Source: Legionella sp. W10-070 | GTDB lineage: Bacteria; Pseudomonadota; Gammaproteobacteria; Legionellales; Legionellaceae | Direction of reading: 5' to 3' | DNA: 51,350 bases | Assembly (NCBI RefSeq): GCF_900640175.1 | Contig: NZ_CAAAJC010000021.1 | Location: 1 to 51,350 of the forward strand | Shown here: one piece after another, positions 7,754-51,171 of the stretch | Layout: every line of letters begins with the position of its first letter | Position numbering within the stretch: position 1 is the stretch's first letter | Translations under genes and position numbers: made by a program | The notes under the pieces: generated by a model | What the model was told of the DNA's origin: nothing | Database searches by the model: none | Seen by the model: only the letters and a program-made list of their open reading frames with translations

Positions 7754-7858
7754 CAAAATACCTTATGATGCACATGCACAAAGGGTGCACGATAATTAAT
7801 TAGTACAATAGTTAAATCCACATTTTGTACGCGGTAAATTAAGGCTTGGGAGTATAAC

Positions 7859-10302: not shown

Positions 10303-10401
10303 AATATTCTCTCATTCCTGATTACCAAGAGGAAACACTCAAGACTTTCAGTTGAAGACCTCTTTAGTCTTTTGTCAATAAGTTTTAGATGATTATAGCA
10401 A

Positions 10402-10427
10402 ATTCCCCTCGTTTGACCGAGAGGAAT
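10402..10427. terminator. Hairpin in the 210-bp gap between fadE and the 9505-10302 gene
   Basis: Arms ATTCCCCTCG (10402-10411) and CGAGAGGAAT (10418-10427) pair with one mismatch around a 6-base loop. It lies 3' of fadE (minus strand), so it could end that transcript, but no clear T-tract follows. A TATAAT-like box on the same strand just downstream of it probably belongs to the promoter of the next gene. Confidence 0.35.
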
Positions 10428-10512
10428 AATGCTGTCTAATCGTTAAGAGAAAGTAAAATTTTAATAAAATAAGAGACGATAATCTGACTAAAATTACCCT
10501 GTCTGTGGTTAA

Positions 10513-32954: not shown

Positions 32955-33716
32955 GTGAAAAAATTTGCTCCAATTTTTGTTTTACTATTAAGTCAATTAT
33001 CACCATCTTACGCGGGTGGCACTTCCGCTAATACTGCTTCAGGTCGCTGGTATTTAGGCGGCAGCATGGGCGCGTCCTATCCTGAAGTAACGAAAAACCA
33101 GTATGCTCCTAACGGTGATGGATGGCCAGATGACCGCTATATCAGTCATAATCCAAACTCCTCCGTTCTGGTGTCATTGACAGGAGGCTATACCTGGTTT
33201 ACCCAGCGGGATTGGCTGCCATCTTACAGCGTGGGGGCAAGCTATACCTATTATTTCCCCAATACTGTCAAAGGAACGATTCAGCAATATTCCTTAGCCC
33301 AATTTGAGAACTATAACTTTCAATACCAACTCAAACGCCAGACAGTGCTTGCCGTTCTAAAAGCTACTATTTTCCAATACCGCAGACTGATGCCCTTTAT
33401 TTCAGCTGGCATCGGCAGTTCCTTTAACCAGATGGGAAATTATATTGAATCGCCGGTCTCTCCTGACATCACCCCCCGAGTTTCCCCTCACTTTGAAAAT
33501 AACCGCCATAGTCATTTTAGCTATACCTTAATGGCTGGGATTGATTACCTTGTCAATGCTAATCTTTGGCTGGGTGCAGGATACCGCCATGGGTATTTTG
33601 GTGATGCACAAACAGGCTATGGCAAGTCTGGTTATTCTACAGATTACTTAAAAGCCAGAGTAACTGATAACGCGGTGGTTATTAATATAAATTATTTTTT
33701 CGATCATGCTGCTTAA
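32955..33716 (+). CDS. Outer-membrane beta-barrel protein
   Basis: A 253-residue exported protein. The signal peptide (MKKFAPIFVLLLSQLSPSYAG) is followed by alternating amphipathic, aromatic strands: GRWYLGGSMGASYPEV, VSLTGGYTWFTQ, YSVGASYTYYF, LMPFISAGIGSS and FSYTLMAGIDYLVNANLWLGAGYRHGYFG. The end AVVININYFFDH fits an eight-stranded OmpA/OmpW-like barrel. The start is GTG 32955 with AAAGGA upstream. It lies 16 bases before the GH17 gene, so the two are probably co-transcribed. Confidence 0.8.
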   Translation: MKKFAPIFVLLLSQLSPSYAGGTSANTASGRWYLGGSMGASYPEVTKNQYAPNGDGWPDDRYISHNPNSSVLVSLTGGYTWFTQRDWLPSYSVGASYTYYFPNTVKGTIQQYSLAQFENYNFQYQLKRQTVLAVLKATIFQYRRLMPFISAGIGSSFNQMGNYIESPVSPDITPRVSPHFENNRHSHFSYTLMAGIDYLVNANLWLGAGYRHGYFGDAQTGYGKSGYSTDYLKARVTDNAVVININYFFDHAA

Positions 33717-33732
33717 AGGGAGTTGTTGCAAT

Positions 33733-35550
33733 ATGACTGCATTTCGGGTTTTCTTTTTCGTTCTCCTGTCTTTTTTTATCAATACGTTATTTGTTGCTCC
33801 GGTATTTTCACAGTTTGAAAAGAAAATCGGTGTTGACCCAATTGCACCGCGAATAACCTCCAATACCACTATTCCTGCTGCCAGTTCGCTTGGCGGAGTT
33901 TATCTGGTGGCCTATACTGTCACCTCAAACCTGCCCTTCACCATGCCAACTGCTTTCTCCAATTCACTGCAGATTTCTGCTCCCAGCGGCGAGTTTACCG
34001 TTACCGATCATTGCAACGGCATACGTTTATCTCCTGGACAAAGCTGTGAGATATCGGTTGGCTTAAATGCACGGACAACAGGGAATAAATCGGCTGTGGT
34101 CTATTTGAATTATGGTAAAAACTCTGTGCCGATACGAATCTCTACCAGAGTCACCGCCGTCATCCAGGATGCTGGCTGGAGTGGTTTAATTGGGGTCGAT
34201 TACCAACCTAATCATTACCCAAATGGCAACCCGTTCAATGGTCATGATGTATTTTATTCGGGTACTGCCAATGGATTAGCCATCACCAATGTCTATGCTG
34301 AGCTTTCCCAGCTTAAAGCAGCCGGGTTTAATACCGTGCGCTCCTATCAAACAGTCGAGTATGCCTGGATTGATATTATCAATCAGGCTAATGCCTTGGG
34401 CATGAAGGTCGTTTATGAAGCAGTCATCCCTCAGAATGGCTCACAAACGGATATCACAAATGCCATTACCGTTTTAAATCACGTGATTGATACCGTAGGC
34501 ACTACCACCTTCAATAATACGGTTATCCTTTTATTTGCAGGCCATGAAAATTACAGCAACACGAATATTAATTATTTAACCAGCGCCATAACTCAACTTA
34601 AATCGGCTCTGGCCAGCAAAGGGATAACCAATGTGCCCGTTGGTTCTGCCCTGATAAGTGGCAACCTGGTCACCCCAAGCCCTGCCATCGCCGCTGATAT
34701 GACCACCCTGGTCAACAGTTATTCGGCTAACGCCCCTTGGGCATTTGACCCTTATCCATTTCAATGGGGGGTTAGTCCGCCAGATCAGGCCGTATCCAAT
34801 GTGACATTGATAAATTCAATTGCCTGGGATTATGCCCAGGTTATCAGTCAATCCTTTTATACAGCAGCTCCCCGCACCATTATCATGGCTGAAACAGGCT
34901 GGGCCACCAGCGGACTTGGAACCTATGCTGGTTATTTTTGCGCCACTCAAAATAATTGTGCTCCCAGTGTTGCAAATGCCGGAACCTATTTGACCGCACT
35001 GTATGCTTATGTCGGCAATTCTGGTAATAATAGCGGCGCTTTAGTCTTTGAAGCCTATAATGAACCAGCAAAAGATCCTGTTCATGCCGATAATGCAGAG
35101 AACTTTTACGGCGTATTCGACAGTAATTGTGGCTTAAAGGGGGTTTCCTTATTACCCAACCGCAGTTTTTCAATCGCATCAAACCCGGGGTGTGCCGGTT
35201 TTACCAGCGGCGCTTTATTCAATGTAATTGGTGGCAACACCACTACTCAGCCCCAATTTGAAGTTCAAGTTAGCCAAACCAACCCTGTGACTATGGCGGA
35301 TGCCGGAATCACGGCTATTATTCCTAATGAAAATAGAGATAATATGGCCATCAACCCCTGGCCCTATTTTGTAGTCTACAATGGTGCTGAAGTAACCATC
35401 AATGGCACAGGCACAGGGAACAGCTGCAGTGTAACTGTCAGCGTAGCGGGCGGAGCAATTACCGGCTTCTCAGCAGTAAATTGTACCGGTGCGATTGTTG
35501 TAAACTGTAATGCAGGGATCTCAGCCTGTTTTCTGCCTGCTGATTACTAA
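33733..35550 (+). CDS. Secreted GH17-family beta-1,3-glucanase-like hydrolase
   Basis: About 605 residues. A signal peptide (MTAFRVFFFVLLSFFINTLFVAPVFS) is followed by an Ig-like domain (about 40-145) and a GH17-like TIM barrel (about 150-450). The barrel starts WSGLIGVDYQPNHYP; LLFAGHENYS carries the proposed proton donor Glu272, and AETGWAT the nucleophile Glu387, both as in GH17 glucan endo-1,3-beta-glucosidases. The C-terminal 120 residues are a small beta-rich Cys-containing domain. ATG 33733 gives a clean signal peptide; ATG 33706 would overlap the upstream gene. A role against fungal or algal glucan, or in processing its own polysaccharide, is inferred. Confidence 0.78.
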   Translation: MTAFRVFFFVLLSFFINTLFVAPVFSQFEKKIGVDPIAPRITSNTTIPAASSLGGVYLVAYTVTSNLPFTMPTAFSNSLQISAPSGEFTVTDHCNGIRLSPGQSCEISVGLNARTTGNKSAVVYLNYGKNSVPIRISTRVTAVIQDAGWSGLIGVDYQPNHYPNGNPFNGHDVFYSGTANGLAITNVYAELSQLKAAGFNTVRSYQTVEYAWIDIINQANALGMKVVYEAVIPQNGSQTDITNAITVLNHVIDTVGTTTFNNTVILLFAGHENYSNTNINYLTSAITQLKSALASKGITNVPVGSALISGNLVTPSPAIAADMTTLVNSYSANAPWAFDPYPFQWGVSPPDQAVSNVTLINSIAWDYAQVISQSFYTAAPRTIIMAETGWATSGLGTYAGYFCATQNNCAPSVANAGTYLTALYAYVGNSGNNSGALVFEAYNEPAKDPVHADNAENFYGVFDSNCGLKGVSLLPNRSFSIASNPGCAGFTSGALFNVIGGNTTTQPQFEVQVSQTNPVTMADAGITAIIPNENRDNMAINPWPYFVVYNGAEVTINGTGTGNSCSVTVSVAGGAITGFSAVNCTGAIVVNCNAGISACFLPADY

Positions 35551-36355: not shown

Positions 36356-37207
36356 CTAACCTGATGTTTTGTCAGTGGATGTAAGGCGGGAAGCTTTATT
36401 AGACCAGATTAAAATACGGGTGTATTTTTTAAACATTGGCGCTATCAAACTAGAAAATAACCGTATCATTTTGGAGGCGAACCCTGGATTGATATTATTC
36501 TTTTTTAGTTTTTTCAAAGTATAGATTGCAACTTGTTCAGGTTGCCAAAACCCTCCATTCTTTGTAATAATCCGGGTTACCTCAGGCTTGAGCCGCTCCT
36601 CATAATGCAACTGCTCGGTATTGGTGTCTGGTGGGTAAAGGATAGATAATGAAACCGTCGTTCCTGCTAATTCCTGCTGCAGAATTTGCCCATACATACT
36701 GATGGCTGACTTGGTAGGGCTATAAGTTGAATAACCATATATGGCTATTAATCCGGCCACAGACGAAGTTAGCAAAATTTTTGCGCACTGATTTTGGCGT
36801 AAAAAAGGTAAGCAATATTGGACACAATAAACACTGCCAAGATAATTCACTGTAATCGCGGACTGGTAAAGCGGGACTTCAAGCTGGGCCGCCATCCCCG
36901 GATGAGCAATACCAGCGGTGATAATGAGCAAATCAATCCCAGCCATTGTTTCAATTGCCTTTTTTAATGCAGTCTCAATATCAGTTTGGTTGGCAACATT
37001 GGCAGGGAAGCAATGTACTTTGGTCCCTTTTTTTTCTCTTATTAAACTATTTCTGGCCAGTTCCAGTTTTTCCTGGCTTCTTGAAATAAGGCTAATTTCA
37101 TTTGATTCATCAAGCAGCTCTTTTGCCAGACAAAACCCAATCCCTGAAGAGCCACCGACAATGACAATTTTTTTAAACTGCTTGTAATAATCCGTATTTC
37201 TTTTCAT
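36356..37207 (-). CDS. Short-chain dehydrogenase like 3-ketodihydrosphingosine reductase
   Basis: A 283-residue classical SDR. The cofactor motif is VIVGGSSGIGFCLA, the catalytic Ser is in LLTSSVAGL and Tyr/Lys in YSTYSPTKSA. The segment after the active site reads LSILYPPDTNTEQLHYEE; a PPDTDTPG-like sequence at this place is characteristic of 3-ketosphinganine reductases (KDSR/TSC10). The C-terminal part has hydrophobic stretches (MIRLFSSLIAPMF) consistent with membrane association. Reduction of the ketone made by the oxoamine synthase at 42381 is therefore the likely role; this is inference from motif plus context. It diverges from the hydroxylase gene. Confidence 0.8.
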   Translation of the reverse strand: MKRNTDYYKQFKKIVIVGGSSGIGFCLAKELLDESNEISLISRSQEKLELARNSLIREKKGTKVHCFPANVANQTDIETALKKAIETMAGIDLLIITAGIAHPGMAAQLEVPLYQSAITVNYLGSVYCVQYCLPFLRQNQCAKILLTSSVAGLIAIYGYSTYSPTKSAISMYGQILQQELAGTTVSLSILYPPDTNTEQLHYEERLKPEVTRIITKNGGFWQPEQVAIYTLKKLKKNNINPGFASKMIRLFSSLIAPMFKKYTRILIWSNKASRLTSTDKTSG

Positions 37208-37277
37208 GTAGTTAACACCAGCCCGATAATCATTGATTATAATTATAGAATTAAAATCTAATTTGGGTGTTTCGCCA

Positions 37278-38039
37278 ATGACTACTCCCCCTATTATTCT
37301 GGATTTATTTATTTCCTGGATAACGATATATGGTGGTTTGGTGTGCCTTTATTTTATAACAGGATGGATTATTGAATGCATTGTAGCCAAAAATCCCAAC
37401 CTGAAAATACAAAAAGGAACAATGGTTTTCCACAAGGATAAACTTCTTGATATCAAGCAAAGTGTTATCTCTTTACTATCAATTAGTTTTTTTATTGCTT
37501 TAGGATATACACTACAAGGCTATGGTTTTAGCTTATTTTCACCGCAGCCTCATTCGCTGCTAAGGGTGATTATTGAATATCCGCTTTATTTTATTTTATC
37601 GTTAATTCTTTTCGATACCTGGTTTTACTGGATGCACCGCTTAATCCATGTACAACCGCTATTTAAATACGTGCATGCGTGGCACCATCGTCGTAGTTTA
37701 AGAACCCCATCAACGTGGGCAAATAACAGTGATACATTACTTGATGATCTATTTTTGCAATCCTATTGGTTCTTTGCTTTTGTTTTATTGCCTTTCCCGG
37801 CAATAGTACTGTTCATCCATAAAATTTATGATCAGATAACCGGCATGATGGGCCATTCCGGCTATGAAATTAGCGGCGTATTGCCTTTGAAATGGAAATT
37901 TCTTGTGGCTGTTGTCCACCATGACCAGCATCATAGTGCAGTAAAATATAATTTTGCCACTCATTTCAGCTGGTGGGATAGAATGGCAGGTACGCTTCAT
38001 CCAGATTACGACGCTAAACGCAATTCATTTAAACGCTGA
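37278..38039 (+). CDS. Sterol desaturase/fatty acid hydroxylase superfamily protein
   Basis: A 253-residue integral membrane di-iron enzyme. The histidine boxes are complete: HRLIH (120-124), HAWHH (133-137) and HHDQHH (214-219), with another His at 193. Four or so hydrophobic helices surround them. The superfamily (PF04116) includes C-5 sterol desaturase and the sphinganine C4-hydroxylase Sur2. In this neighbourhood, hydroxylation of a sphingoid-like chain is the best guess. ATG 37278 is chosen; a TTG at 37233 has no better signal. The 3' end overlaps the convergent condensation-domain gene by 15 bases. Confidence 0.85.
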   Translation: MTTPPIILDLFISWITIYGGLVCLYFITGWIIECIVAKNPNLKIQKGTMVFHKDKLLDIKQSVISLLSISFFIALGYTLQGYGFSLFSPQPHSLLRVIIEYPLYFILSLILFDTWFYWMHRLIHVQPLFKYVHAWHHRRSLRTPSTWANNSDTLLDDLFLQSYWFFAFVLLPFPAIVLFIHKIYDQITGMMGHSGYEISGVLPLKWKFLVAVVHHDQHHSAVKYNFATHFSWWDRMAGTLHPDYDAKRNSFKR

Positions 38040-39572
38040 ATAATTATTAAGGTTATTTAAGATCGTCTGCATTATTTGCTTATCAATTACTTCCAGGTAA
38101 TAGGATTCAATATGGAGTATCAGCCCACCATCATTAGTGTCATCAATATTTATAGAAACGTAATTTTTTGTATTGTGATATAACGGATAAAAATAGTGTT
38201 TTAGTTTCAGCTGATTAGAAACAAATCCTTTTTTTATTTTCTTATCAGACACCGCATTACGAAAATTAAAGCTTAGCAAAGGAAACGCTTTATTTTTATT
38301 GGCAAAAAATTCATAAGCTATCAGCCCGGCATAACAATCTGCCATTGCTTTGCTCACCCTCGTATATTTTGATATGCCGGTAAAGGCGCGGAGCATAAAA
38401 CTTATCAAAGGTGCACTTTTTTTATACTTGCAATAATACAACCATCCTAATGCCGCTCCATAAGGTAAATTAGAATAATTTAATGATTTTCTATTTTTAT
38501 TTTTTAAATCTTCCGTCATTCCAATTAAATCGTCATTAACGGGATTAAACGCAAACGAACGTTCATTAAGACAAGGTCCTAAAATTTCCTGATACTGATT
38601 ATTAAAGTGGGGCTGACTAATCAATTGAATAAGGAAATTATTATTCTTGCAATAAGGCTTGAAAGCATTCAGTGTTGCACTAATAATGAGTTCTTCTATC
38701 GTATAATCATGAGAATAAGCAAATTCCTTCAGTGCATCTGTTTGGTGTTTTTCTAAAGTATAGAGTAAGCGCTTTTTTATGGATGTTTGTTGATCAATAA
38801 TGTCATTACTAATCTGACAGGGACTAAAATTCCCATAGTCCTTTTCAATATGCCGCTGCAATGATTGGTAAAGATTAGCGTAATAGCTTTTTTCACTATG
38901 GATATAGTTTCGATAGGGATAATAATTTTTAATTTCCAAATCATTATATTTTTGCCACAAAATTTGCCATATAAGGGATTTGGTTTTAGCATCGATTGCC
39001 TTATGCGTGATCACTAACTGCAATAATGCATTACGTTCATCGATTTGAATCAAACAGGGGTAAATGTTCTGCTTTAGTTTGCGTAAATCAACCTGTGCCA
39101 ATTGCATGTTAATTGCATCAATTTGCTCTTCATAGGACTTTGTCTGTTCTAAAGGAAAGGTTACCAATTCAATTTTTTGTTTGGGCAATTTTTTTGCGTA
39201 AGGAAGCCAATTGTTAACCCGGAAATTAAATATATCAAATTCAGTAACTAAATAATTAAGTACATTTTCCAGTTTAATTTTGTCTAATTTCCCTTCCCAA
39301 AAAAAGGAAATAACTTCATTCTTGGAATATCCTGAAGTCAATTCGATACTCCAAAAGAGAAGTTGGCAGTCACTAAGAGGAATTTTATTAGGATGGCGCA
39401 TTTTCTCAAGCAGCCGTTCCTGCTGTTTTATGTTTTTATGCAGCAGGCTTAGTTTTTCCTGGCTGTAGTTTTTTTTTATTTCTGATAAACAGGCTTGCTT
39501 TGCCTTTTTTGGCAAAGCCAGTATCCTTTTAGCAATCAAGCCAAGACGCTGATTAATCCTAAACTGCTCCAT
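38025..39572 (-). CDS. Stand-alone condensation-domain-like acyltransferase
   Basis: A 515-residue protein resembling a single NRPS condensation (chloramphenicol acetyltransferase-like) domain. The first 60 residues are basic and helical. The domain then starts with LSDCQLLFWSIEL and a strand-helix run ending EFDIFNFRVN. The active-site motif HxxxD is ITHKAIDAKTK with His180 and Asp184 (second His of HHxxxD; Thr replaces the first). Near the end, KHYFYPLYHNTKNYVSINID matches the latch region. Such free C domains make amide or ester bonds from a carrier-bound acyl group; the carrier on the 40574 gene is the natural donor. It overlaps the lyase gene by 14 bases. Confidence 0.75.
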   Translation of the reverse strand: MEQFRINQRLGLIAKRILALPKKAKQACLSEIKKNYSQEKLSLLHKNIKQQERLLEKMRHPNKIPLSDCQLLFWSIELTSGYSKNEVISFFWEGKLDKIKLENVLNYLVTEFDIFNFRVNNWLPYAKKLPKQKIELVTFPLEQTKSYEEQIDAINMQLAQVDLRKLKQNIYPCLIQIDERNALLQLVITHKAIDAKTKSLIWQILWQKYNDLEIKNYYPYRNYIHSEKSYYANLYQSLQRHIEKDYGNFSPCQISNDIIDQQTSIKKRLLYTLEKHQTDALKEFAYSHDYTIEELIISATLNAFKPYCKNNNFLIQLISQPHFNNQYQEILGPCLNERSFAFNPVNDDLIGMTEDLKNKNRKSLNYSNLPYGAALGWLYYCKYKKSAPLISFMLRAFTGISKYTRVSKAMADCYAGLIAYEFFANKNKAFPLLSFNFRNAVSDKKIKKGFVSNQLKLKHYFYPLYHNTKNYVSINIDDTNDGGLILHIESYYLEVIDKQIMQTILNNLNNYSAFK

Positions 39573-40422
39573 TTTTTTTAAATCTCCGCGACATATTTTT
39601 ATTTAGCACCTCAGTACATTCTTCAAGTACAGATGAAGGGCTGATTTTACTTAATAAAAAATCATGCTCCATTAGTTGCTGCATGGCTTTTTGAATTGCG
39701 TGTTGGGCGGAAAAAAGGCATGGGGTACTGAATATGGCCAGTCCTATGCCACATTCTTCTAATTCAGTCAGGTTATGAGGGCTGGATTTCCCGCCCGCTA
39801 TCTGATTATAAGCAATTTTATTTTCTTTCCTTAAATCATAAAGCACATCCAAAGAGCAAAGTTGCTCGACAGACATACCGTCAACCAGAATAGAATCTAC
39901 CGGGAGCGCTTTCATTTTTGAAACCCGTTCAAGTATCTCTTCCATCTGGGTTGCATCCGTACGTGCAACAACGAAAAGATCCCCGCTCACGGACATGACT
40001 TCCTCTAATTTTTTAATATAATTATCTGGCGAAACAAGGGTTTTCCCGTTGTAATGGCCGCATCGCCTTGGCCTTGATTGATCCTCGAGGATAATTCCTG
40101 AAGCGCCGGCATCATACAGGCAGGCAGTAATCATTTTTGCATTATGGATATCCACAAAACCATCGTCTATATCAACCAGGATATGTGCATCTGGAAGTAT
40201 GCTTCTAATTCGCATGACATAATTCAACAGATCAGACCAGGTATTAAAGCCAATATCAGGAAGTCCATAGTGACTAGCGGCAAACCCAAAGCCACTGACA
40301 AATAAACAATTATGATAATTTGCCACCAGGGAAGCAGAAAAAACATCATATATTCCGATAAAAGGCAAAATCTTTTTCTCGTTTTTTAACTGCCTGAGTT
40401 TTTGTCCGTACAAAAGAGACAT
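39559..40422 (-). CDS. Isocitrate lyase/PEP mutase superfamily lyase
   Basis: A 287-residue TIM-barrel enzyme of the isocitrate lyase/phosphoenolpyruvate mutase superfamily. Metal and substrate residues are visible: VSGFGFAASHYG, ILVDIDDGF (Asp84, Asp86, Asp87) and ILEDQSRPRRCGHYNGK (Glu113, Asp114, Cys121, His123). The Cys in RRCGH is the general acid of lyases such as methylisocitrate lyase; PEP mutases have a different EDK...KxxS loop, so this is probably a C-C lyase or decarboxylase on a 2-oxo/hydroxy dicarboxylate. A near-perfect Shine-Dalgarno AGGAGGT lies 6 bases before the ATG. It is co-transcribed with the condensation-domain gene. Confidence 0.82.
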   Translation of the reverse strand: MSLLYGQKLRQLKNEKKILPFIGIYDVFSASLVANYHNCLFVSGFGFAASHYGLPDIGFNTWSDLLNYVMRIRSILPDAHILVDIDDGFVDIHNAKMITACLYDAGASGIILEDQSRPRRCGHYNGKTLVSPDNYIKKLEEVMSVSGDLFVVARTDATQMEEILERVSKMKALPVDSILVDGMSVEQLCSLDVLYDLRKENKIAYNQIAGGKSSPHNLTELEECGIGLAIFSTPCLFSAQHAIQKAMQQLMEHDFLLSKISPSSVLEECTEVLNKNMSRRFKKNGAV

Positions 40423-40485
40423 AGCAATACCTCCTCACGTTTAATTAATACTATAGGATAGAATCATTTAAAAAGTTCAATTTTT

Positions 40486-40514
40486 TTGTTTTTGGCTAAA
40501 AAGCAACCTATATT
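40486..40514 (+). promoter_or_regulatory. Candidate promoter of the two-gene ligase/synthase operon
   Basis: TTGTTT (40486-40491), a 17-base spacer and TATATT (40509-40514) lie about 60 bases before the start at 40574, within the 151-bp divergent region shared with the lyase gene. Boxes are seen; activity is inferred. Confidence 0.4.
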
Positions 40515-40573
40515 AAGACAATATGTATTAACGCAGCTGGCTGATAAGTGGTTATTTCCCTATGAGGTCAAGT

Positions 40574-42394
40574 ATGTTATCAACTAAGCTTTTTATAGAA
40601 AACAGCAGCAATTACTATGGTTTAATTGCCTTGGAAAGCAGCCAATATCAATTAAGCTATGAAACATTATACAGGCTGGTCGACTACCTCCAATTGCAAT
40701 TTGCTGCCATTGCTTCTCCAGAAAAAACACCCTGCATTTTACTTTTTAATAACAACATCGAGTACGTAGCAACATTCCTGGCAGTGGCCCGACTATGTCC
40801 GGTCATGCCAATTAATCCCGCATTGCCACTCGAACACATTCAAGAAGTTGTACAATCCTTAAACCCAGCATCGGTGATTCATGACCCGATGAATGCGGAC
40901 AAGGCGGGTGAACTCGCTCAAAGAATCGGGATTCATGCCCGGGAAATAAGACTGGATAATGCGCTGGTGCAATCCAAAAAACAAAAAAAACACCAGGACG
41001 TCGCGGCATACCCTAAAGAAAATGAAGTAGCCCTGATTCTCCATACATCAGGGACCACAGCCAAGCCCAAGTGCGTTCCTCTCTCTTATAAAAATTTAAA
41101 CGAAAGCATTGCGAATATCATTAGAACACTGCAATTAAGTATAAACGACCGTAATTTAAATATGATGCCTCTTTTTCATATCCACGGTATCGTTGCCTCA
41201 ATGCTCTCCACCCTTGCAAGTGGCGGCACCCTGATTTTAAAAGATATCGATTATACGAAAATAACGGATTATTTAATTAATGACAAACCAACCTGGTATA
41301 CCGCTGTTCCTACCATTCATCACAAAATTTATCAGGCACTCTCCATGCAGCCAAATGAGTGCGCAACCGGTAGTTTACGTTTTGTACGCTCTTGTTCATC
41401 GCCGCTGTCTGAAGTGTTGCAGCAAAAGATACAAGCGCTGTTGAATGTGCCCGTGATACAAGCATATGGCATGACTGAAGCAGCACACCAGGTTTCTACC
41501 AACCCCCTATCCATCGCTGATATTAAAATAAATTCGGTAGGCCAAACCAAAGGGGGCATTTCTGTCATGATCATTGGAGATGAGAATCAGAAACTAAATC
41601 GCAATGAAGTGGGAGAAGTTTGTATTCAAGGAGACAATGTATTCCAAGGCTATATGAATAATCCTGAGGCGAACAAAGACGCTTTTATTCAAGGCCATTT
41701 CCGAACAGGGGATCTTGGTTATATTGATTCGGACGGATATTTATTTTTAACAGGAAGAAAAAAAGAAATAATTAATAAAGGAGGGTTTAAAATTGCCCCC
41801 CTGCAAATTGACCAGGTAATGTTAAGACACCCTCAAATCAAAGAAGCCATTACCTTCCCAATCCCTCATGAAACACTTGGCGATGATATTGGCTTAATGG
41901 TTGTTACTGAACAAGGTTTGGAGAAAAAGGCGATTTATGAGTACCTGCAGGACAAAGTTGCAGAGTATATGCTTCCTTACGAGATTTATATTGTCGATGA
42001 CATACCTAAATCAGCAACCGGAAAAATTAATAGGCTCTCGATTGCACAATCATTACCTGCAACCAATAAACCCTTCCGGAAGCCGCAAAATAAATTGGAA
42101 GAAGAGCTTGTGGAATTGTGGAAGTCCCTGTTGATGGTTCCTCAGGTTTCTGTGGATGATAATTTTTTCCAATTAGGCGGAAATTCATTATTAGCTACAG
42201 AATTCTATAACTACATTGCAACCTCCCATCAGTTGCAGCTCCAACCTATAGAGTTATACCAAGCGCCAACAATCGCAAAAATAGCAATCCGTATTTACGA
42301 AAATAAGAAAAATGCAGAAAGTGACTGGCTCAGCGAGATAGAGCAGCTTCTAAAAGAATATGAAAATAATGAGGTTCATTATGGCTATGAATAA
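40574..42394 (+). CDS. AMP-dependent acyl ligase with C-terminal carrier (PCP/ACP) domain
   Basis: A 606-residue ANL-superfamily enzyme fused to a phosphopantetheine carrier. The ATP loop LHTSGTTAKPKCVP is at about 156-169, followed by AYGMTEAAHQVS, FRTGDLGYIDSDGYLFLTGRKKEIINKGG and the catalytic Lys484 in SATGKINRL. After a linker, the carrier has DNFFQLGGNSLLATEF with attachment Ser538. It adenylates a carboxylic acid and loads it on its own carrier; the substrate is unknown. ATG 40574 has GAGG 6 bases upstream (ATG 40562 would add four residues). It overlaps the next gene by 14 bases. Confidence 0.88.
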   Translation: MLSTKLFIENSSNYYGLIALESSQYQLSYETLYRLVDYLQLQFAAIASPEKTPCILLFNNNIEYVATFLAVARLCPVMPINPALPLEHIQEVVQSLNPASVIHDPMNADKAGELAQRIGIHAREIRLDNALVQSKKQKKHQDVAAYPKENEVALILHTSGTTAKPKCVPLSYKNLNESIANIIRTLQLSINDRNLNMMPLFHIHGIVASMLSTLASGGTLILKDIDYTKITDYLINDKPTWYTAVPTIHHKIYQALSMQPNECATGSLRFVRSCSSPLSEVLQQKIQALLNVPVIQAYGMTEAAHQVSTNPLSIADIKINSVGQTKGGISVMIIGDENQKLNRNEVGEVCIQGDNVFQGYMNNPEANKDAFIQGHFRTGDLGYIDSDGYLFLTGRKKEIINKGGFKIAPLQIDQVMLRHPQIKEAITFPIPHETLGDDIGLMVVTEQGLEKKAIYEYLQDKVAEYMLPYEIYIVDDIPKSATGKINRLSIAQSLPATNKPFRKPQNKLEEELVELWKSLLMVPQVSVDDNFFQLGGNSLLATEFYNYIATSHQLQLQPIELYQAPTIAKIAIRIYENKKNAESDWLSEIEQLLKEYENNEVHYGYE

Positions 42395-45300
42395 GCTCAC
42401 CTTCCCTTATCAGTTTTTACAAAACGTTATTAGTAATCCTGATAAAATCGCAATTACTTTCCTTAACGAGAAGAAAGAAGCCATTGATATTAGCTATTCG
42501 GAATTAATGAAGAAAATCAATGGAGTAGGGAATGCAATATTGGAGTCAACTCATAACGGCGCGCCTGTATTGCTGCTTTATACACCTGGAATCAACTTCA
42601 TTGTTGCCTTTCTTGCCTGTCTGTATACAAACAGATTGGCTATCCCTGCTTATCCACCCATTAATTTTTCCGCGGTTTCCCGCCTGGAAAGTATCATCAG
42701 AAACTCAAATCCTGCGCTAATTTTGAGCGAGGAAACTATTCTGAAAAATTTAAAGAAAATCCCTTTGATAAAGTACCTTCTCCTCCCTTATATAAAAAAG
42801 AAAGTGCTTCGTGCATTTCATGTACCCGATAATATTGTGTTTTTATTTGAGAGCGTGTCACAGATGATGGCAACTGATTCACTAAGTGATGACCAGGCTA
42901 ATTTTGATGTAGCAAAAATAGAGGGGCCTGCGTTTATTCAATATACTTCAGGAACGACCTCAAATCCCAAAGGGGTACTAATTAGCCACAGCAATATTGC
43001 CGATAATCTACATTTGATTCGAGAAGCATTTAATATCCACTCCGAGTCAAAAGGATTTATCTGGTTGCCTCCATACCATGATATGGGATTAATTGGCGGA
43101 ATTTTGGTACCCCTATACCACTGCATCCCGGTCGTCTTGACAAGCCCGCTCAATTTTATCAAAAATCCTAACCTCTGGCTGGAATCAATTTCCAAGTACA
43201 GAGCAACAATCAGCGGCGGCCCCAATTTTGCCTATAATCTATGTAATCGTCGAACCAGTGATGAATATCTAGAGCGTCTGGATTTGTCGTCCTGGGAAAT
43301 TGCATTTTGCGGCGCAGAACCCATTAATGCAGAAACAATGAACCACTTTGTTCGCAAATTTAAAGCCTGCGGTTTTAAACCAACCGCGTTAATACCCTGT
43401 TATGGAAATGCTGAAAGTACTTTAATTGTTAGCAGTACAAATTATAATGAGCATTTGAATGTGGTAAAAATCAATCGCGACTCCTTAAGCAATGGACAGG
43501 TCGTCTTTGATTCTTCCCATAACTCAGTCAGTGTGGTGGATTGTGGCATGCCACTGCTTAATGTGAAAATTGCCTCAACCGAAACAGGTGAGTTTCTGCA
43601 AGAAAAGCAAATTGGTGAAATTTTAATTAATGGGAATAGTGTTTCTTCCGGATATTGGAATGACCAACAAAAGACGGATGCTGCTTTTAAAGTTGCCCCT
43701 GATGGAAATCGATATTATCACAGCGGCGATTTAGGTTTTTTATCTGAGGGAAAATTATTTATTAGCGGTCGAATGAATGATCTGATCATTATTGGTGGAC
43801 GGAATTATTTTGCCCATGAAATCGAATCCATTGTTCATGTTTGCAGCCCTGATATCCGACAAGGCTGCTGCGTTGCCTATGAGTCCTTTGAATCAGGGAT
43901 TAGTCAACTGGCGTTGGCTATAGAAGTAAAATCAGGAAAAGAAGACCATTATCCGGATTTGGTTCGCCATATTATGCTTGAAGTCAACCAGTATTTTGGA
44001 ATTTCAGTCGCCGAAATTAAGTTGCTCAAACCGCATTCTATCCTTAAAACAACCAGCGGAAAATTACAGAGATATCAAACAGTAAAACACATTGAAACCC
44101 ACCCTGAATGCGTTCTTTTCCATTTTAACAATCATCTGCCGCAGGACGGTAGGGCAGAGGTACCTGTAAAACCAGCGCCAGAGCATAAAAAATGCCATTA
44201 TGAAGGTAAAAAAAGAGCTAAACTTATTGAACGCACCATAATTGAATTGGTCAATGCCAATTATTCCCAATTATTAAAATGCAAGCCTAACACGTCTTTG
44301 GAAAGATTAGGCCTTGATTCGATTATGTATATAAAATTGTTGTCCTCTCTCAAGCAACGGCTATCCTTGGAATTTGAAGTAAATGATATCGTAGTCAATA
44401 AAAATCAAACAATCAGGACATTAGCAAAAGAGATAGCCCGATTAACGCAGGAGTCAAAACGCATTACACGACTGGAGCAGCTGCCAAAAATCAAAAATCT
44501 GTTGGAAAGGCATAGCGATTTAGTTGAAAAAAATTATCACCAATTATTTATGCGGGCTTTTGAAGGGCCTGCAAATAGTATTATATCCCTGGATGGCAAA
44601 CCATTTATTAATTTTGCTTCATATAATTATTTAGGCTTAAGCGATGATAAAGAAATGAAGCAATTTATAAAAGATAATGTCGATCGATACGGCAGTTCAG
44701 CGTCGGCAAGCCGCCTGGTCGCTGGAAATCGAGTTTTAACGGAGCGATTGGAACAGGAACTGGCGCAATTTGTCGGCTATCCTGACGCGATACTGTTTAC
44801 TGCGGGTTATCAGACCGTCGTGTCAACAATTACCCATTTATTTGGTCATAATGACGCGATTATTTATGATGAATTAGTCCATAACAGCAGTTTGCTAGGT
44901 GCCTATTATTCAGGAGCCGAGTTATATACCTTCAAACATAATGATCCAGAATCATTACACAACCAACTGGCTCTATTAGCGAATAAGTTTGAAAAGATAT
45001 TAATTATTACTGAAGGTGTCTTTAGCATGGATGGCGATATTGCCCCTATCGACAAAATTATAGCCCTCAAAAAAGAATACGGTTGCTTTTTAATGATTGA
45101 CGAGGCGCATTCATTGGGAGTCATTGGCAATACAGGCCGCGGTGTTATTGAATATTTTCAACAGTCTCCCGAAGATATTGATATCATTATTGGTACCTTG
45201 AGCAAAGCTTTTTCCAGTTGCGGTGGCTTTGTTTGTGCGAGCAGAGAATTAATCCAGTATATGAAATTTTCCGCTCCTGGTTTCGTTTTTTCTGCAGGAA

Positions 45301-45665
45301 TTACACCCGCGAATGCTGCAGCCGCACTTTATGCGTTGCAACGCATAAAGAAAGAGCCACAATTAATTCAACGCATGCAGCATAATGCTGATTATTTTCT
45401 TAAACAAGCAAATACGCTTGGACTTGATACAGGAGAATCAAGAAACACCCCTATTGTCCCTGTAATTATAAAAGACTCCAACAAAACGCTGGAAGCATCA
45501 TATCAATTATTCTGTGAGGGAATCTACGCACCGCCAATTATTGCACCCGGGGTAACTGAAGAGCAGGCGAGGATTCGATTTTTTATTACTGCGCTACACC
45601 AAAAAGAACAACTGGACTTTTGCATTGAGGAATTAGCCCGAATCAAGCCAACACTGCTGCAATGA
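42381..45665 (+). CDS. Trifunctional fatty-acyl-AMP ligase / acyl carrier protein / alpha-oxoamine synthase
   Basis: A 1094-residue fusion. Residues 1 to about 580 are a fatty-acyl-AMP ligase: FIQYTSGTTSNPKGVLISH (near 187), YGNAESTLIV, HSGDLGFLSEGKLFISGR (near 447) and KTTSGKLQRYQT (near 556). Residues about 610-690 are an acyl carrier with ERLGLDSIMY and attachment Ser647. Residues about 725-1094 are an alpha-oxoamine synthase (SPT/KBL/BioF): FASYNYLGLS, MIDEAHSLGVIG with Asp907, and GTLSKAFSSCGG with PLP-binding Lys942. Expected chemistry is activation of a fatty acid, loading on the carrier and decarboxylative condensation with an amino acid to an aminoketone. ATG 42381 is chosen by GAGG at 6 bases. 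Confidence 0.88.
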   Translation: MAMNKLTFPYQFLQNVISNPDKIAITFLNEKKEAIDISYSELMKKINGVGNAILESTHNGAPVLLLYTPGINFIVAFLACLYTNRLAIPAYPPINFSAVSRLESIIRNSNPALILSEETILKNLKKIPLIKYLLLPYIKKKVLRAFHVPDNIVFLFESVSQMMATDSLSDDQANFDVAKIEGPAFIQYTSGTTSNPKGVLISHSNIADNLHLIREAFNIHSESKGFIWLPPYHDMGLIGGILVPLYHCIPVVLTSPLNFIKNPNLWLESISKYRATISGGPNFAYNLCNRRTSDEYLERLDLSSWEIAFCGAEPINAETMNHFVRKFKACGFKPTALIPCYGNAESTLIVSSTNYNEHLNVVKINRDSLSNGQVVFDSSHNSVSVVDCGMPLLNVKIASTETGEFLQEKQIGEILINGNSVSSGYWNDQQKTDAAFKVAPDGNRYYHSGDLGFLSEGKLFISGRMNDLIIIGGRNYFAHEIESIVHVCSPDIRQGCCVAYESFESGISQLALAIEVKSGKEDHYPDLVRHIMLEVNQYFGISVAEIKLLKPHSILKTTSGKLQRYQTVKHIETHPECVLFHFNNHLPQDGRAEVPVKPAPEHKKCHYEGKKRAKLIERTIIELVNANYSQLLKCKPNTSLERLGLDSIMYIKLLSSLKQRLSLEFEVNDIVVNKNQTIRTLAKEIARLTQESKRITRLEQLPKIKNLLERHSDLVEKNYHQLFMRAFEGPANSIISLDGKPFINFASYNYLGLSDDKEMKQFIKDNVDRYGSSASASRLVAGNRVLTERLEQELAQFVGYPDAILFTAGYQTVVSTITHLFGHNDAIIYDELVHNSSLLGAYYSGAELYTFKHNDPESLHNQLALLANKFEKILIITEGVFSMDGDIAPIDKIIALKKEYGCFLMIDEAHSLGVIGNTGRGVIEYFQQSPEDIDIIIGTLSKAFSSCGGFVCASRELIQYMKFSAPGFVFSAGITPANAAAALYALQRIKKEPQLIQRMQHNADYFLKQANTLGLDTGESRNTPIVPVIIKDSNKTLEASYQLFCEGIYAPPIIAPGVTEEQARIRFFITALHQKEQLDFCIEELARIKPTLLQ

Positions 45666-45675
45666 TCAAGGATAA

Positions 45676-46083
45676 TTATAAGGAACGAAAAGTCCAATAT
45701 TTATGACCCAAAAAAATGGTGAACACCGGAAATATCAATCCAAAGGCATGTGCTATTTCATGTGTATACGCACTAATATTCATCGTTGGCAAGACATAAT
45801 AAGCCAGTATCAGGCTAATCAGCAATGTCTGCAGCAAACCCATCAAATTTACCAAAATAAAAAATACAATCGAGCGCAAAAAAGTTTGTTGACCATGACG
45901 AAATACAAACAATTTACTGAGCGTAAAAGCAGTCACCATCCCGGTAATATAGGCAAATATAATCGAGATTGAAAAACCAAAAGAATAATTATATAAAATC
46001 CTGCTGCAGAAATTCACTATGAGTGATATCCCCCCGGTTAACAGAAAAATAAAAAATTGTTTTGAAATAAAATGATTGATCAC
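45676..46083 (-). CDS. GtrA-family membrane protein
   Basis: A 135-residue protein with four hydrophobic helices, beginning FISKQFFIFLLTGGISLIVNFCSRIL and ending in FLGHKYWTFRSL, the typical GtrA end. GtrA proteins are thought to flip or help deliver polyprenyl-phosphate sugars, or take part in lipid glycosylation. Start is GTG 46083. It converges on the trifunctional synthase with 10 bases between stops, so it may belong to the lipid cluster and act in headgroup glycosylation or transport; this is a guess from position. Confidence 0.8.
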   Translation of the reverse strand: MINHFISKQFFIFLLTGGISLIVNFCSRILYNYSFGFSISIIFAYITGMVTAFTLSKLFVFRHGQQTFLRSIVFFILVNLMGLLQTLLISLILAYYVLPTMNISAYTHEIAHAFGLIFPVFTIFLGHKYWTFRSL

Positions 46084-48692: not shown

Positions 48693-49181
48693 TTGGCACA
48701 AGCCGACTGGATAACCAGAAAACAAAACCTGCTTCTTACAGGGCCTTGTGGCAGTGGAAAAACCTACTTAGCCTGCAGTCTCGGTCATAGCGCTTGCCTG
48801 AAAGGTCTTCAAACCAGATATTACCGTCTGTCACGATTGTTTATCACCTTGGCGAAAGCCAAAGCCGATGGCACCTATCACAAGGAATTAACAGCGCTGT
48901 CACAAACCAGGTTATTGATCATTGATGATTGGGGAATGGAGCCAATAACTCAAGCTCAACGAAGTGATCTAATGGAAATTATGGACGATAGACACGAACA
49001 GTCATCAACACTAATCATTAGTCAGCTTCCTGTCGAACAGTGGTATGCCTGTATTGGTGATAACACACTGGCTGACGCTATTTTGGATCGACTGGTTCAT
49101 AATGGTCATCGACTAAATTTAAAAGGTGAATCCATGCGAAAAATACTTGGGAAATTGACTGAAAGTGAACACTTGGTGTAA
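48693..49181 (+). pseudogene. Truncated istB-like ATPase of an IS21-family element
   Basis: A 162-codon frame matches the C-terminal two thirds of IstB, the AAA+ helper of IS21 transposition. The Walker A loop LLLTGPCGSGKTYLACSLGHSAC and Walker B LLIIDDWGMEP are present, as is the IstB end RLNLKGESMRKILGKL. A full IstB has about 250 residues; the N-terminal 70-80 are missing, with a TAG stop in frame just before 48693, and no istA is seen. It is thus a remnant that could not move by itself. Confidence 0.82.
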
Positions 49182-49211
49182 AAGGTCATTTGGACAATGC
49201 GTAAAATAATA

Positions 49212-49242
49212 GGTGTTCACGTTCGACCAGAATGGGTGTTCA
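49212..49242. mobile_element. Terminal repeats of the IS21-type remnant
   Basis: Two copies of GGTGTTCA at 49212-49219 and 49235-49242, 23 bases apart, in a context (GTTCGACCAGAATG) often found at the right end of IS21 elements next to istB. They mark the probable right boundary of the element. The left end is lost or outside the recognisable part. Confidence 0.55.
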
Positions 49243-49304
49243 TTTTCGTCAGAATACGCAAGGGTTTGTGATGGGCTTTGGTGGTCAGGAATGGTTTTAA
49301 TAAT

Positions 49305-49331
49305 TGGGGCGGCGGGAATCGAACCCGCGAC
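49305..49331 (-). other. tRNA/tmRNA 3'-end-like fragment, possible attachment site
   Basis: On the minus strand this 27-bp stretch reads GTCGCGGGTTCGATTCCCGC followed by CGCCCCA: a perfect T-arm (GCGGG/CCCGC around TTCGATT) and an acceptor-stem end, as in tmRNA or a tRNA. The rest of the RNA is absent and CCA does not follow. Integrases commonly duplicate such 3' ends, so it may be an att remnant of a genomic island or prophage. The surrounding small reading frame (containing GAAGIEPAT) is a by-product of this sequence. Confidence 0.5.
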
Positions 49332-49560
49332 AATTTTTTTTAATCTATTGATATTACTTCGTTTTATTTTTAGCTCAACTTTTTTGGGCAGATATTGGGT
49401 AGTTTTTTGTTAACAATTGCGTTTTTGTTCAGTTTGATTCCGTATATGGGAATTGAATTTGTTTCCTTACAACCGCTATATTTTTTAATTAACCTTTGGT
49501 GTTACTTGATAACCCAATTTATGGTTGGTTGAGTGGTCATAAAAAAATTGTTCTACCATC

Positions 49561-49619
49561 ATTTACCTTAATCTCCAGTAATAGGTAAGTATTAGTATTT
49601 AATGGAGATTAAAGTAAAT
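49561..49619. repeat. Inverted repeat with 17-bp arms
   Basis: Arms 49561-49577 (ATTTACCTTAATCTCCA) and 49603-49619 (TGGAGATTAAAGTAAAT) match with one mismatch around a 25-base loop. It lies in the gene-free stretch 49182-49803 between the IS remnant and the ATPase gene. There is no T-tract; it could be an operator or a leftover of a small mobile element. Confidence 0.6.
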
Positions 49620-49662
49620 ATCATGTGGTGTTACTAGCCCTCAATACTTTAAAAATTCAAAT

Positions 49663-49761
49663 AACAACCCTCTGTTTTCCATGGATATTAATTAAAACAG
49701 GGCGCTGTTTTGTTGGTTTAATAATAAAAACAACCGTCTGTTTTGTTGACTTAAATATATT
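49663..49761. repeat. Three degenerate 33-bp direct repeats upstream of the ATPase gene
   Basis: Units 49663-49695, 49696-49728 and 49729-49761 have an exact 33-base period; the shared core CTGTTTT starts at 49672, 49705 and 49738. Units 1 and 3 share AACAACC at the start, and units 2 and 3 share CTGTTTTGTTG. The third unit overlaps the -35 box of the promoter at 49746. This is the arrangement expected for an operator array or iterons. Confidence 0.6.
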
Positions 49762-49773
49762 ATTGCTTATAAT
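49746..49773 (+). promoter_or_regulatory. Promoter of the DUF4143 ATPase gene
   Basis: TTGACT (49746-49751), a 16-base spacer and a perfect TATAAT (49768-49773) lie about 30 bases before the start codon at 49804, which has no clear Shine-Dalgarno. The -35 box is inside the third 33-bp repeat, so a protein bound to the repeats would block it. Confidence 0.6.
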
Positions 49774-49803
49774 TTAGTATATTACTAATGATAAGTATAT
49801 TAA

Positions 49804-51171
49804 ATGAAACGAACTCTATTAAATTATATGGATAACTGGCTGGTTTCACCTGACCGGAAACCATTAGTCATTCGTGGGGCAAGACAAGTTGGTAAAACAT
49901 GGCTAGTAAGGCACTTAGCTGAAAAGACAGGAATGCAATTAATTGAACTCAACTTCGAGAAGCAACCTTCCTATGCCAGTCTTTTTGCTTCTAATGATGT
50001 AAATCAAATTTTATTAAATTTAAGTACGGTATTAAATCAGAAAATAGATCCCCCAAAGTGCTTATTATTCCTAGATGAAATACAGGCAGCACCTCAACTG
50101 CTTAGCAAACTCCGTTGGTTTGCAGAAGATTTACCCCAACTAGCAGTAATCTCCGCTGGCTCTCTATTAGAATTTATTCTAGCGGAGCACTCATTTAGTA
50201 TGCCGGTTGGGCGAGTTAGCTATATGCATTTGGAACCATTGTCATTTGATGAATTTTTATTAGCAAATGACAAAGAATCACTTTATGACTATTTAAATCA
50301 ATATGACCTAAGTATCGAGCTCCCCTCTGCGATTCACGAGCAATTAACTACTTTATTTAAAGAATATCTGATTATCGGCGGTATGCCCGCTGTAGTCTCT
50401 AATTGGGCTGCTGAACGCTCTCTGAATAGAGTTAGTCAAATACAAAATGACTTATTGGCCACCTATCGCGATGACTTTTCAAAATATAAAGGTCGTTTAG
50501 CGACAGAAAGATTAGACGAAGTACTTAATTCTATTCCAAAAATGCTTGGACAAAAATTTGTATTTAGTAGAGTTAATAAAACGATTCAAGCATCGACAAT
50601 AAAGCATGTATTAGATCTGTTAGAAAAAGCCCGAATTAGCCACCGAGTACAAAGTAGCTCAGCAAATGGTGTTCCCCTCGCATCTGAAATTAAAGAAAAA
50701 TTTTTTAAAGAAATTTTCCTTGATATAGGCTTATGTAGTACAGCACTAGGACTGAGTTTAAACCAAATTAATTCAACAAATGAAATTCTTTTGATTAATA
50801 ATGGCGGCATCGCTGAACAGGTAGTTGGCCAATTGCTAAGAACAATTGAACCACCCTATATTGAACCAGTTTTGTATTATTGGCATAGAGAAGAGGCTGG
50901 TTCAAGTGCTGAAATTGATTATGTAATCCAACATGGTAATAAAATTATACCTATTGAAGTAAAAGCTGGTGCCACAGGAAGCCTAAAGTCACTACATGTT
51001 TTCATGGGATTAAAAAAATTACCTCTCGCCATGCGAATTAATTCTGATTATCCAAGTAAAACTAATGTAGATGTAAAAGATAATTTAGGGAAATCCGTAA
51101 ACTATACTTTTATATCCATTCCCTTTTATCTTGTGGGGCAGATACATAGATTACTTAGTTTGCTCAACTAA
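49804..51171 (+). CDS. AAA+ ATPase with DUF4143 domain
   Basis: A 455-residue protein of the AAA_14/DUF4143 family. Walker A is RGARQVGKTWLVRHLAE (about 23-39), Walker B CLLFLDEIQAAPQLLSKLRWF, and sensor-like ISAGSLLEF and PLSFDEFLLA follow. The C-terminal DUF4143 part has SSAEIDYVIQHGNKIIPIEVKAG, which resembles a PD-(D/E)xK nuclease core (Asp...Ile-Glu-Val-Lys). Such proteins are widespread accessory genes of unclear role. A+T-rich composition, the neighbouring IS remnant and the att-like fragment suggest recent acquisition. It has its own promoter with repeats. Confidence 0.88.
   Translation: MKRTLLNYMDNWLVSPDRKPLVIRGARQVGKTWLVRHLAEKTGMQLIELNFEKQPSYASLFASNDVNQILLNLSTVLNQKIDPPKCLLFLDEIQAAPQLLSKLRWFAEDLPQLAVISAGSLLEFILAEHSFSMPVGRVSYMHLEPLSFDEFLLANDKESLYDYLNQYDLSIELPSAIHEQLTTLFKEYLIIGGMPAVVSNWAAERSLNRVSQIQNDLLATYRDDFSKYKGRLATERLDEVLNSIPKMLGQKFVFSRVNKTIQASTIKHVLDLLEKARISHRVQSSSANGVPLASEIKEKFFKEIFLDIGLCSTALGLSLNQINSTNEILLINNGGIAEQVVGQLLRTIEPPYIEPVLYYWHREEAGSSAEIDYVIQHGNKIIPIEVKAGATGSLKSLHVFMGLKKLPLAMRINSDYPSKTNVDVKDNLGKSVNYTFISIPFYLVGQIHRLLSLLN

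Follow-up and report, generated by a model that had tools for sequence, protein, structure and literature searches.

Gene content and organization of the cluster

A cluster of seven genes lies at positions 36356..46083 of a 51,350-nucleotide stretch of DNA from Legionella sp. W10-070. This whole stretch is called the window; coordinates refer to it unless another locus is named, and G129, G134 and G499 denote genomes compared with it. All seven open reading frames (ORFs) of the cluster were confirmed at their places. The cluster begins with a short-chain dehydrogenase/reductase (SDR; 36356..37207, minus strand; Pfam adh_short 3.5e-36), a proposed 3-keto reductase, followed by a membrane protein of the FA_hydroxylase/sterol desaturase superfamily (37278..38039, plus strand; Pfam FA_hydroxylase 2.7e-21), which may hydroxylate the sphingoid chain and whose start is likely the ATG at 37278 (orthologue lengths 253 and 247 aa). 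A free-standing, divergent condensation-like protein of the non-ribosomal peptide synthetase (NRPS) kind (38025..39572, minus strand) was recognized using a three-sequence profile and motif alignment, and is proposed to transfer a carrier-bound acid to the lipid. The start of its gene is overlapped by 14 bp by the gene of a C-C lyase of the ICL/PEP-mutase superfamily (39559..40422, minus strand; Pfam PEP_mutase 8e-21), which is proposed to convert oxaloacetate to oxalate. By the ORF coordinates, a divergent intergenic region (40423..40561) separates the lyase from the ligase-carrier gene (40562..42394, plus strand), which codes for an oxalyl-CoA-synthetase-like adenylation domain and a carrier protein with the motif GGNSL (Pfam AMP-binding, AMP-binding_C and PP-binding). 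The next gene is a fusion of fatty-acyl-AMP ligase (FAAL), acyl carrier protein (ACP) and alpha-oxoamine synthase (AOS) (42360..45665, plus strand; Pfam AMP-binding, PP-binding and Aminotran_1_2; likely start ATG 42360 or 42387), the proposed maker of a long-chain aminoketone. A small GtrA-family membrane protein, accessory at most (45676..46083, minus strand; Pfam GtrA 1.5e-12), closes the set.

The G+C content of the cluster is 0.383 as compared to 0.403-0.448 for segments of the same length taken at 250-base steps on its left. The same genome (2.7 Mb in 64 contigs, of which C21 is the window in full) codes for a Dot/Icm protein of the IcmL/DotI family scoring over the cut-off, a family found in none of 14 control genomes, and for an LqsA-type synthase over the equivalog cut-off; hence the genome was taken to be of the Legionella family.

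Conservation and probable mobility of the gene set

The hydroxylase, condensation-like protein, lyase, ligase-carrier and fusion were found clustered in three Legionellaceae genomes, namely those of the window, G129 and G134. The ligase-carrier (E <= 1e-60, up to nine candidates scored per genome) and the lyase (E <= 1e-40) were each found in these same three of 143 genomes at the thresholds used. Matches to the condensation-like protein at E <= 1e-5 occur in 46 of the 143 genomes; they are full length only in the same three and partial in the rest. In the fusion-protein search, which covered 140 genomes of the family with up to five candidates scored per genome, some match at E <= 1e-60 was obtained in 68, and close loci are restricted to three (window 100%, G129 71% and G134 64% identity). 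At least 12 further fusions have other neighbours and identities of 34-42%; the one in G089 is interrupted by a stop. A separate search for the fusion protein in a collection of genome contigs returned four weak adenylation-domain matches and nothing else.

In G129 the hydroxylase, condensation-like, lyase, ligase-carrier, fusion and GtrA genes follow the same order as in the window, and the DNA similarity between the two spans 37309 to 46076, ending at the cluster ends. In G134 the five core genes and the SDR stand in a different order, together with a transporter of the major facilitator superfamily (MFS). The lyase and ligase-carrier genes are divergently arranged in all three clusters, and a three-way alignment of the intergenic region between them revealed no clear shared operator. 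In 12 of 12 gene comparisons codon position 2 is kept (0.76-0.92) far better than position 3 (0.39-0.51), and all seven genes are under protein-level constraint. The clustering is not due to chance: the same genes are again side by side in three genomes whose flanks differ and whose gene order is partly changed. A gene of the Beta-lactamase2 family adjoins the G129 cluster (L038:3180-4073).

Co-conservation in other genomes, which the earlier sequence-only reading of the window had set beforehand as a test of itself, was thus found for five genes. Its seven-gene unit has to be narrowed accordingly: the SDR orthologue is present in two of the three clusters (61% identical in G134), and GtrA, whose G129 orthologue is 64% identical, is absent from the G134 cargo described below, with no orthologue among the ORFs reaching 70 aa in the parts of G134 that were viewed. 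GtrA is probably not a core gene.

The G134 cluster is placed between two inverted, 100% identical Tn3-family elements of 4,048 bp (L039:4211-8258 and L157:914-4961, by sequence comparison), each with a transposase, a resolvase and terminal inverted repeats of about 167 bp that are 92% identical. The cargo between them consists of the fusion, SDR, hydroxylase, MFS, ligase-carrier, lyase and condensation-like genes, and a 116-aa ORF of no known kind sits at the edge of the second copy. We read this arrangement as a composite element of recent origin, with the cargo as the functional unit. Traces of the G134 Tn3 element were not detected beside the window or G129 clusters by blastn and tblastn. 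Taken together, the cluster looks like a mobile, horizontally moving biosynthetic unit. An additional Tn3-transposase-like ORF was seen in G134 at L157:4850-5968. To the right of the window cluster (48693-51171) lie an IS21 IstB-like helper and a DUF4143 AAA ATPase (Pfam), which are signs of a mobile neighbourhood. On its left side, residues 42-154 of a 614-aa protein (33706-35550) match the LegT effector model in its N-terminal portion, at 47.8 bits and thus far below the cut-off of 1200.

The lipid half

Among solved structures, the FAAL part of the fusion is nearest to 3kxw (352 bits), which is listed under the name saframycin Mx1 synthetase B and which we take to be a Legionella FAAL; the next named FAALs are 3pbk (243 bits) and FadD23 (229 bits). 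This part is nearer to FAALs than to CoA ligases in the same comparison, and its score with the NCBIfam FAAL model is below the cut-off (325 against 600). The AOS part is nearest to the serine palmitoyltransferase 3a2b, presumably the Sphingobacterium-type enzyme, with 253 bits, the type that follows reaching 230. The carrier motif DSI and the GTLSK lysine of the fusion are invariant in all three orthologues, and the AOS lysine and histidine align with those of 3a2b. In the AOS family this lysine binds pyridoxal phosphate and the histidine stacks on the cofactor.

The three histidine boxes of the hydroxylase (HRLIH, HAWHH and HDQHH) are likewise invariant in the three orthologues, and its PDB search gave no match. 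In the SDR, the glycine motif, Y162 and K166 are invariant in all six aligned sequences. The sequence-only reading had described this protein as KDSR-like; Pfam supports its assignment as an SDR, but the KDSR label is not established, as the top-scoring NCBIfam model is one for SDRs in general, whose cut-off is not reached. A role as 3-ketosphinganine reductase may nevertheless be proposed for it. Overall, the lipid half of the pathway is well supported.

Other AOS systems were observed during the study. The same genome contains a second AOS cluster (L052:6247-14688, G000:C3) with a PAPS-reductase-family protein, a FAAL-carrier-ketosynthase-acyltransferase-carrier synthase, a ComA phosphosulfolactate synthase and a ComB-type phosphatase, which suggests a cysteate-using pathway to a capnine-like sulfonated sphingoid lipid. 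It contains moreover another FAAL-carrier protein adjoining an AOS, near alanine-dehydrogenase and electron transfer flavoprotein genes (L053:8666-12006, G000:C4). At four other loci (L041-L044, about 5200-11900), an SDR gene and two genes whose lengths correspond between the loci stand ahead of a FAAL-ACP-AOS fusion; in L041, the one scanned, these two are DJ-1/PfpI-like and D-arabinono-lactone-oxidase-like and point to a different aminoketone pathway. A further fusion (L046:4821-10996) has a polysaccharide-deacetylase-like gene and two genes with no Pfam match just upstream, and those of L045 and L047-L051 belong to the same group.

The acid half

The solved structures closest to the adenylation domain of the ligase-carrier are three oxalyl-CoA synthetases, from grass pea, Arabidopsis and yeast (6qjz, 5ie0 and 8aff, with 310, 303 and 291 bits); the next enzyme type scores 186 bits. 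We take Ser289 and His319 to be the oxalate-binding pocket residues of the Arabidopsis enzyme AtAAE3. These positions are Ser and His in the 5ie0 sequence and align with S279 and H309 of the window ligase, and the pair is kept in its orthologues as in the stand-alone relatives and the three solved synthetases. Of 34 aligned adenylating enzymes, 15 have H309, namely those of the window, G129, G134 and G499 and 11 stand-alone relatives; the 19 others, which include NRPS-fused relatives, lack it, as do all eight other adenylating enzymes of the same genome. The best NCBIfam model for the ligase is the FadD7 fatty acid-CoA ligase, below its cut-off.

Relatives of the ligase were found in 12 of 369 genomes of the class (E <= 1e-70, three candidates scored per genome) and in 36 of 398 genomes of the phylum (E <= 1e-100), from which 17 neighbourhoods were fetched and 15 were aligned. 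A PanE/ApbA-family gene occurs at 12 of the 13 stand-alone-relative loci viewed (tblastn), directly beside the ligase in 10, and the PanE protein of Methylobacterium is described as an oxalyl-CoA reductase (PMC9485241). A gene near two of the stand-alone ligases, first read as a decarboxylase, is actually a gamma-glutamyltransferase.

The nearest solved structures of the lyase are the petal death protein, an entry named 'CPEP phosphonomutase', 2,3-dimethylmalate lyase and oxaloacetate acetylhydrolase, and its superfamily includes oxaloacetate acetylhydrolase, petal death protein and methylisocitrate lyase. The superfamily is marked by the motif KxCGH and metal-site Asp residues. The CGH motif and VDIDDG are kept in all eight aligned sequences; the motif reads RRCGH or RCCGH, with Arg for Lys, and agrees with the superfamily pattern.

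For the condensation-like protein, a profile of the three orthologues matches NRPS proteins at E 3e-12 and weaker, and both of the two matched proteins that were scanned carry Pfam Condensation domains. The second His (H190) and the Asp (D194) of the catalytic motif are kept, and the other condensation motifs align with a bona fide condensation domain at 18% identity. A PDB profile search gave three weak coiled-coil matches only, and no relative was found in a plasmid search.

Relatives outside the family

G499 comes from a different family within the class. It has a single same-strand run made up of a condensation domain (Pfam 1e-94), a thiamine pyrophosphate (TPP) enzyme, a lyase and a ligase-carrier, the last two being 44% and 37% identical to those of the window. 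The best NCBIfam model for the TPP enzyme is oxalyl-CoA decarboxylase (337 bits, below cut-off). The lyase was found in two of 23 genomes of this family, the second copy on a 5-kb contig without the ligase. Actinomycete lyases that are 45-47% identical, with relatives from Embleya and Streptomyces among them, occur at five plasmid loci, two of them on near-identical Streptomyces plasmids, and the window lyase groups with the actinomycete and G499 members. What looked like the end of a ligase-carrier at the border of an Embleya locus turned out to belong to an ordinary NRPS.

The ligase, carrier and condensation domain also follow each other within one chain in the five proteins viewed from the genus g392 (same phylum, genomes of 6-9 Mb). 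By domain counts, the two that were scanned read ligase-carrier-condensation-adenylation-carrier-condensation and ligase-carrier-condensation. BLAST of the g392 stretches fetched gave nothing related to the AOS domain, the hydroxylase or the SDR. Synthetases at L139:6390-12881 and L140:5965-9219, in genomes of 6-9 Mb, combine an oxalyl-synthetase-like first domain, a carrier and a condensation domain in a single chain, with Ser/Thr at the place of the pocket His. The NRPS-fused relatives were dropped as support for oxalate owing to this Ser/Thr at position 309; as the pocket position differs, they back only the ligase-carrier-condensation arrangement.

Proposed pathway and alternative explanations

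A pathway can be proposed in which the FAAL domain would activate a fatty acid as acyl-AMP and load it onto the fused ACP, and the fused AOS would condense the acyl-ACP with an amino acid, perhaps serine, to form a long-chain 2-amino-3-ketone. The SDR would then reduce the ketone, and the tri-His membrane enzyme would hydroxylate the chain. On the other side, the lyase would supply a small acid, most likely oxalate from oxaloacetate, which the ligase would convert to oxalyl-AMP and pass to its own carrier domain. The free condensation-like protein would finally move the oxalyl group to the amine of the base (giving an oxamate) or to a hydroxyl (giving an ester). We infer all the substrates, the order of the steps and the product; the domain identities, co-conservation, boundaries and pocket-residue conservation were observed directly. 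That the cluster is a horizontally moving unit making a sphingoid-base-like lipid with an oxalyl group is a reading we hold to be evenly balanced between right and wrong, and the oxalyl half of the pathway itself stands at about an even chance. The broader view, in which a transposon-borne pathway makes an oxalylated sphingoid base and its lyase, oxalyl-ligase-carrier and condensation protein form a portable oxalylation cassette serving other scaffolds elsewhere, is put forward tentatively and leans towards the doubtful side. A designed E. coli pathway leading to an N-oxalyl amino acid includes oxaloacetate hydrolase, oxalyl-CoA synthetase and a BAHD acyltransferase among its enzymes (PMC9485241); it follows the same logic, and the proposed chemistry is therefore workable.

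Several observations weigh against this oxalyl-sphingoid reading. On the lipid side, BioF is the best NCBIfam model for the AOS (357 against a cut-off of 426), followed by serine palmitoyltransferase models at 322 against 640 and 284 against 500. As the serine palmitoyltransferase equivalog cut-offs are missed, the protein was classed as an AOS and not as a serine palmitoyltransferase, and with the BioF model leading and none over cut-off, serine is a plausible candidate for the amino acid. The G129 cluster has no SDR orthologue, and a different SDR (25% identical) follows GtrA there. On the acid side, the lyase is devoid of what is presumably the marker of fungal oxaloacetate hydrolases, a Ser after ARTDALQ (Ser157 of the Cryphonectria enzyme): it reads ARTDATQM, with Met aligned and then a three-residue gap with respect to 3lye. 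Hence it is at most a possible functional analogue and not a member of the oxaloacetate hydrolases. Further, the NxxExG Glu of the petal-death, dimethylmalate and oxaloacetate enzymes is replaced by Ala, Thr or His in the three orthologues. The sequence-only reading had listed all the parts of a pathway, and six families were confirmed by Pfam, but the 515-aa condensation-like protein has no Pfam or NCBIfam match alone and fails Pfam Condensation; its HHxxxDG motif is partial and reads THKAIDA. In grass pea, the acid can be transferred directly from oxalyl-AMP without a thioester (PMC9935904), so that a role for the carrier is one we infer. All three PanE-like neighbours scanned bear the NCBIfam name 2-dehydropantoate 2-reductase. 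For the G499 TPP enzyme, acetolactate synthase is close behind oxalyl-CoA decarboxylase (325 against 337 bits, all below cut-off), and the G499 pathway may be larger, because the run sits at a contig end where another condensation domain starts and is cut off. None of the five actinomycete plasmid loci has such a ligase within about 15 kb of the lyase, and one of them has an ordinary NRPS about 11 kb away.

The lipid half may also be the same and the acid a different one, i.e. another small polycarboxylate (of the tricarballylate, succinate or malate type) or glyoxylate added by fumonisin-like esterification through a ligase and a carrier-condensation protein. Reactions of the lyase superfamily also yield succinate, glyoxylate and pyruvate, and the family names within it span such enzymes. 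Ligase specificity can drift, as in the NRPS-fused relatives with Ser or Thr at 309, and tricarballylic acid is attached in fumonisin biosynthesis using an AOS, a ketoreductase, hydroxylases, an acyl-CoA synthetase and a condensation-domain NRPS (PMC7711896). The window ligase, however, keeps the S279/H309 pattern of the solved oxalyl-CoA synthetases, and no Fum7-type dehydrogenase or tricarboxylate carrier was found among the window's seven proteins by Pfam; we consider a different acid unlikely. The two halves may alternatively be separate pathways lying side by side, one making an AOS lipid and the other an oxalyl or small-acid conjugate of an amino acid or other non-sphingoid acceptor. This would agree with G499, where nothing related to the AOS domain, SDR or hydroxylase accompanies the lyase, ligase-carrier and condensation genes within the 16 kb fetched, although the contig ends next to these genes, and with G134, where the AOS-SDR block stands apart from the ligase block. 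On the other hand, both blocks and the hydroxylase are together in all three Legionellaceae clusters, both are within one transposon-bounded cargo in G134, and the lyase and ligase-carrier were not found in the other 140 genomes at the thresholds used, which makes such a separation decidedly improbable.

An ordinary ceramide pathway, in which the ligase-carrier and condensation-like protein would stand in for ceramide synthase by attaching a normal fatty acid, draws some support from the FadD7 match noted above and from the ceramides reported in L. gormanii, for which the synthase genes are candidates only (PMC9146996). Among solved structures, however, oxalyl-CoA synthetases are much nearer to the ligase than fatty acid ligases are, the ligase is paired with a lyase of small acids, and an occurrence in three of 143 genomes would be rare for a membrane staple; the explanation is accordingly very improbable. 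A chance neighbourhood of unrelated genes may be argued from the mixed strands and from GtrA being a common small membrane protein, but the recurrence with rearrangement, the protein constraint and the transposon-defined boundaries leave it scarcely credible, and in our view it is refuted for the five core genes.

To our knowledge, oxalylated sphingoid bases, meaning sphinganine analogues that bear an oxamate or an oxalate ester, are not a known lipid class. According to a 2018 review, Legionella seems to be devoid of sphingoid lipids (PMC6148460); the ceramides of L. gormanii make such lipids plausible in the genus (PMC9146996). In the open-licence papers searched, no precedent was found for such a pathway, for a FAAL with an AOS or for Legionella sphingoid clusters, and the portions of these papers dealing with oxalyl and NRPS condensation yielded no oxalyl-loading NRPS. 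If the oxalyl-sphingoid reading is true, the cluster would provide a new sphingoid-type lipid and a new role for oxalate as a biosynthetic acyl group, in a compact, transposon-delimited gene set of a family of intracellular bacteria with reported sphingolipids and candidate genes only (PMC9146996). The lyase, ligase-carrier and condensation set can serve as a genome-mining handle for oxalyl-bearing metabolites.

Comparison with known systems

Solved serine palmitoyltransferases are single domains of about 400 residues, unlike the window AOS, which is fused to FAAL and ACP. In the Caulobacter ceramide cluster, serine palmitoyltransferase, ACP, reductase and N-acyltransferase are coded by separate genes. 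The BioWF fusion of biotin synthesis resembles the window protein in having an acid-activating enzyme fused to an AOS, but it is of the pimeloyl-CoA synthetase type, a di-domain protein without a carrier that uses pimelic acid and alanine (PMC9544090). In case of the acid half, AAE3/Pcs60 and the Lathyrus AAE3-BOS pair of beta-ODAP synthesis share an oxalate-activating enzyme with an acyltransferase partner (PMC9935904), whereas here a carrier domain is fused to the ligase, a condensation-like protein takes the place of the BAHD partner and a lipid acceptor is proposed. The lyase has the superfamily and the CGH motif in common with oxaloacetate acetylhydrolase, petal death protein and 2,3-dimethylmalate lyase, and is shorter at the marker. 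The g392 synthetases have the same domain order as the window set, but in one chain and with Ser/Thr at pocket position 309.

In the fumonisin-type clusters of fungi a polyketide synthase supplies the chain, whereas no polyketide synthase domain was found by Pfam in the seven proteins, and a ready fatty acid would be loaded through the FAAL. Moreover, the AOS is fused here to its own ligase and ACP, a tri-His membrane hydroxylase is present and no P450, the carrier is fused to the ligase with the condensation protein free, and the set includes an oxalyl-CoA-synthetase-type ligase and a lyase. The common ground with the fumonisin/AAL-type clusters (FUM8 AOS, FUM13 reductase, FUM10 ligase and FUM14 condensation protein) is that an AOS step, a ketoreduction and a hydroxylation are combined with a ligase and a condensation-domain protein that add a second acid (PMC7711896). 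Judged by domain assignment, the AOS, ketoreductase, hydroxylase and ligase with condensation protein families all appear to be present in the window. The logic of aminoketone synthesis, reduction, hydroxylation and second-acid attachment suggested by the sequence-only reading is supported, and so is its fumonisin parallel, except for the source of the chain and, probably, the acid; oxalate takes the place of a long acyl chain or tricarboxylate as the most likely second acyl group. The window cluster, if the oxalyl-sphingoid reading holds, would represent a bacterial counterpart of the pathways to fungal sphinganine analogues.

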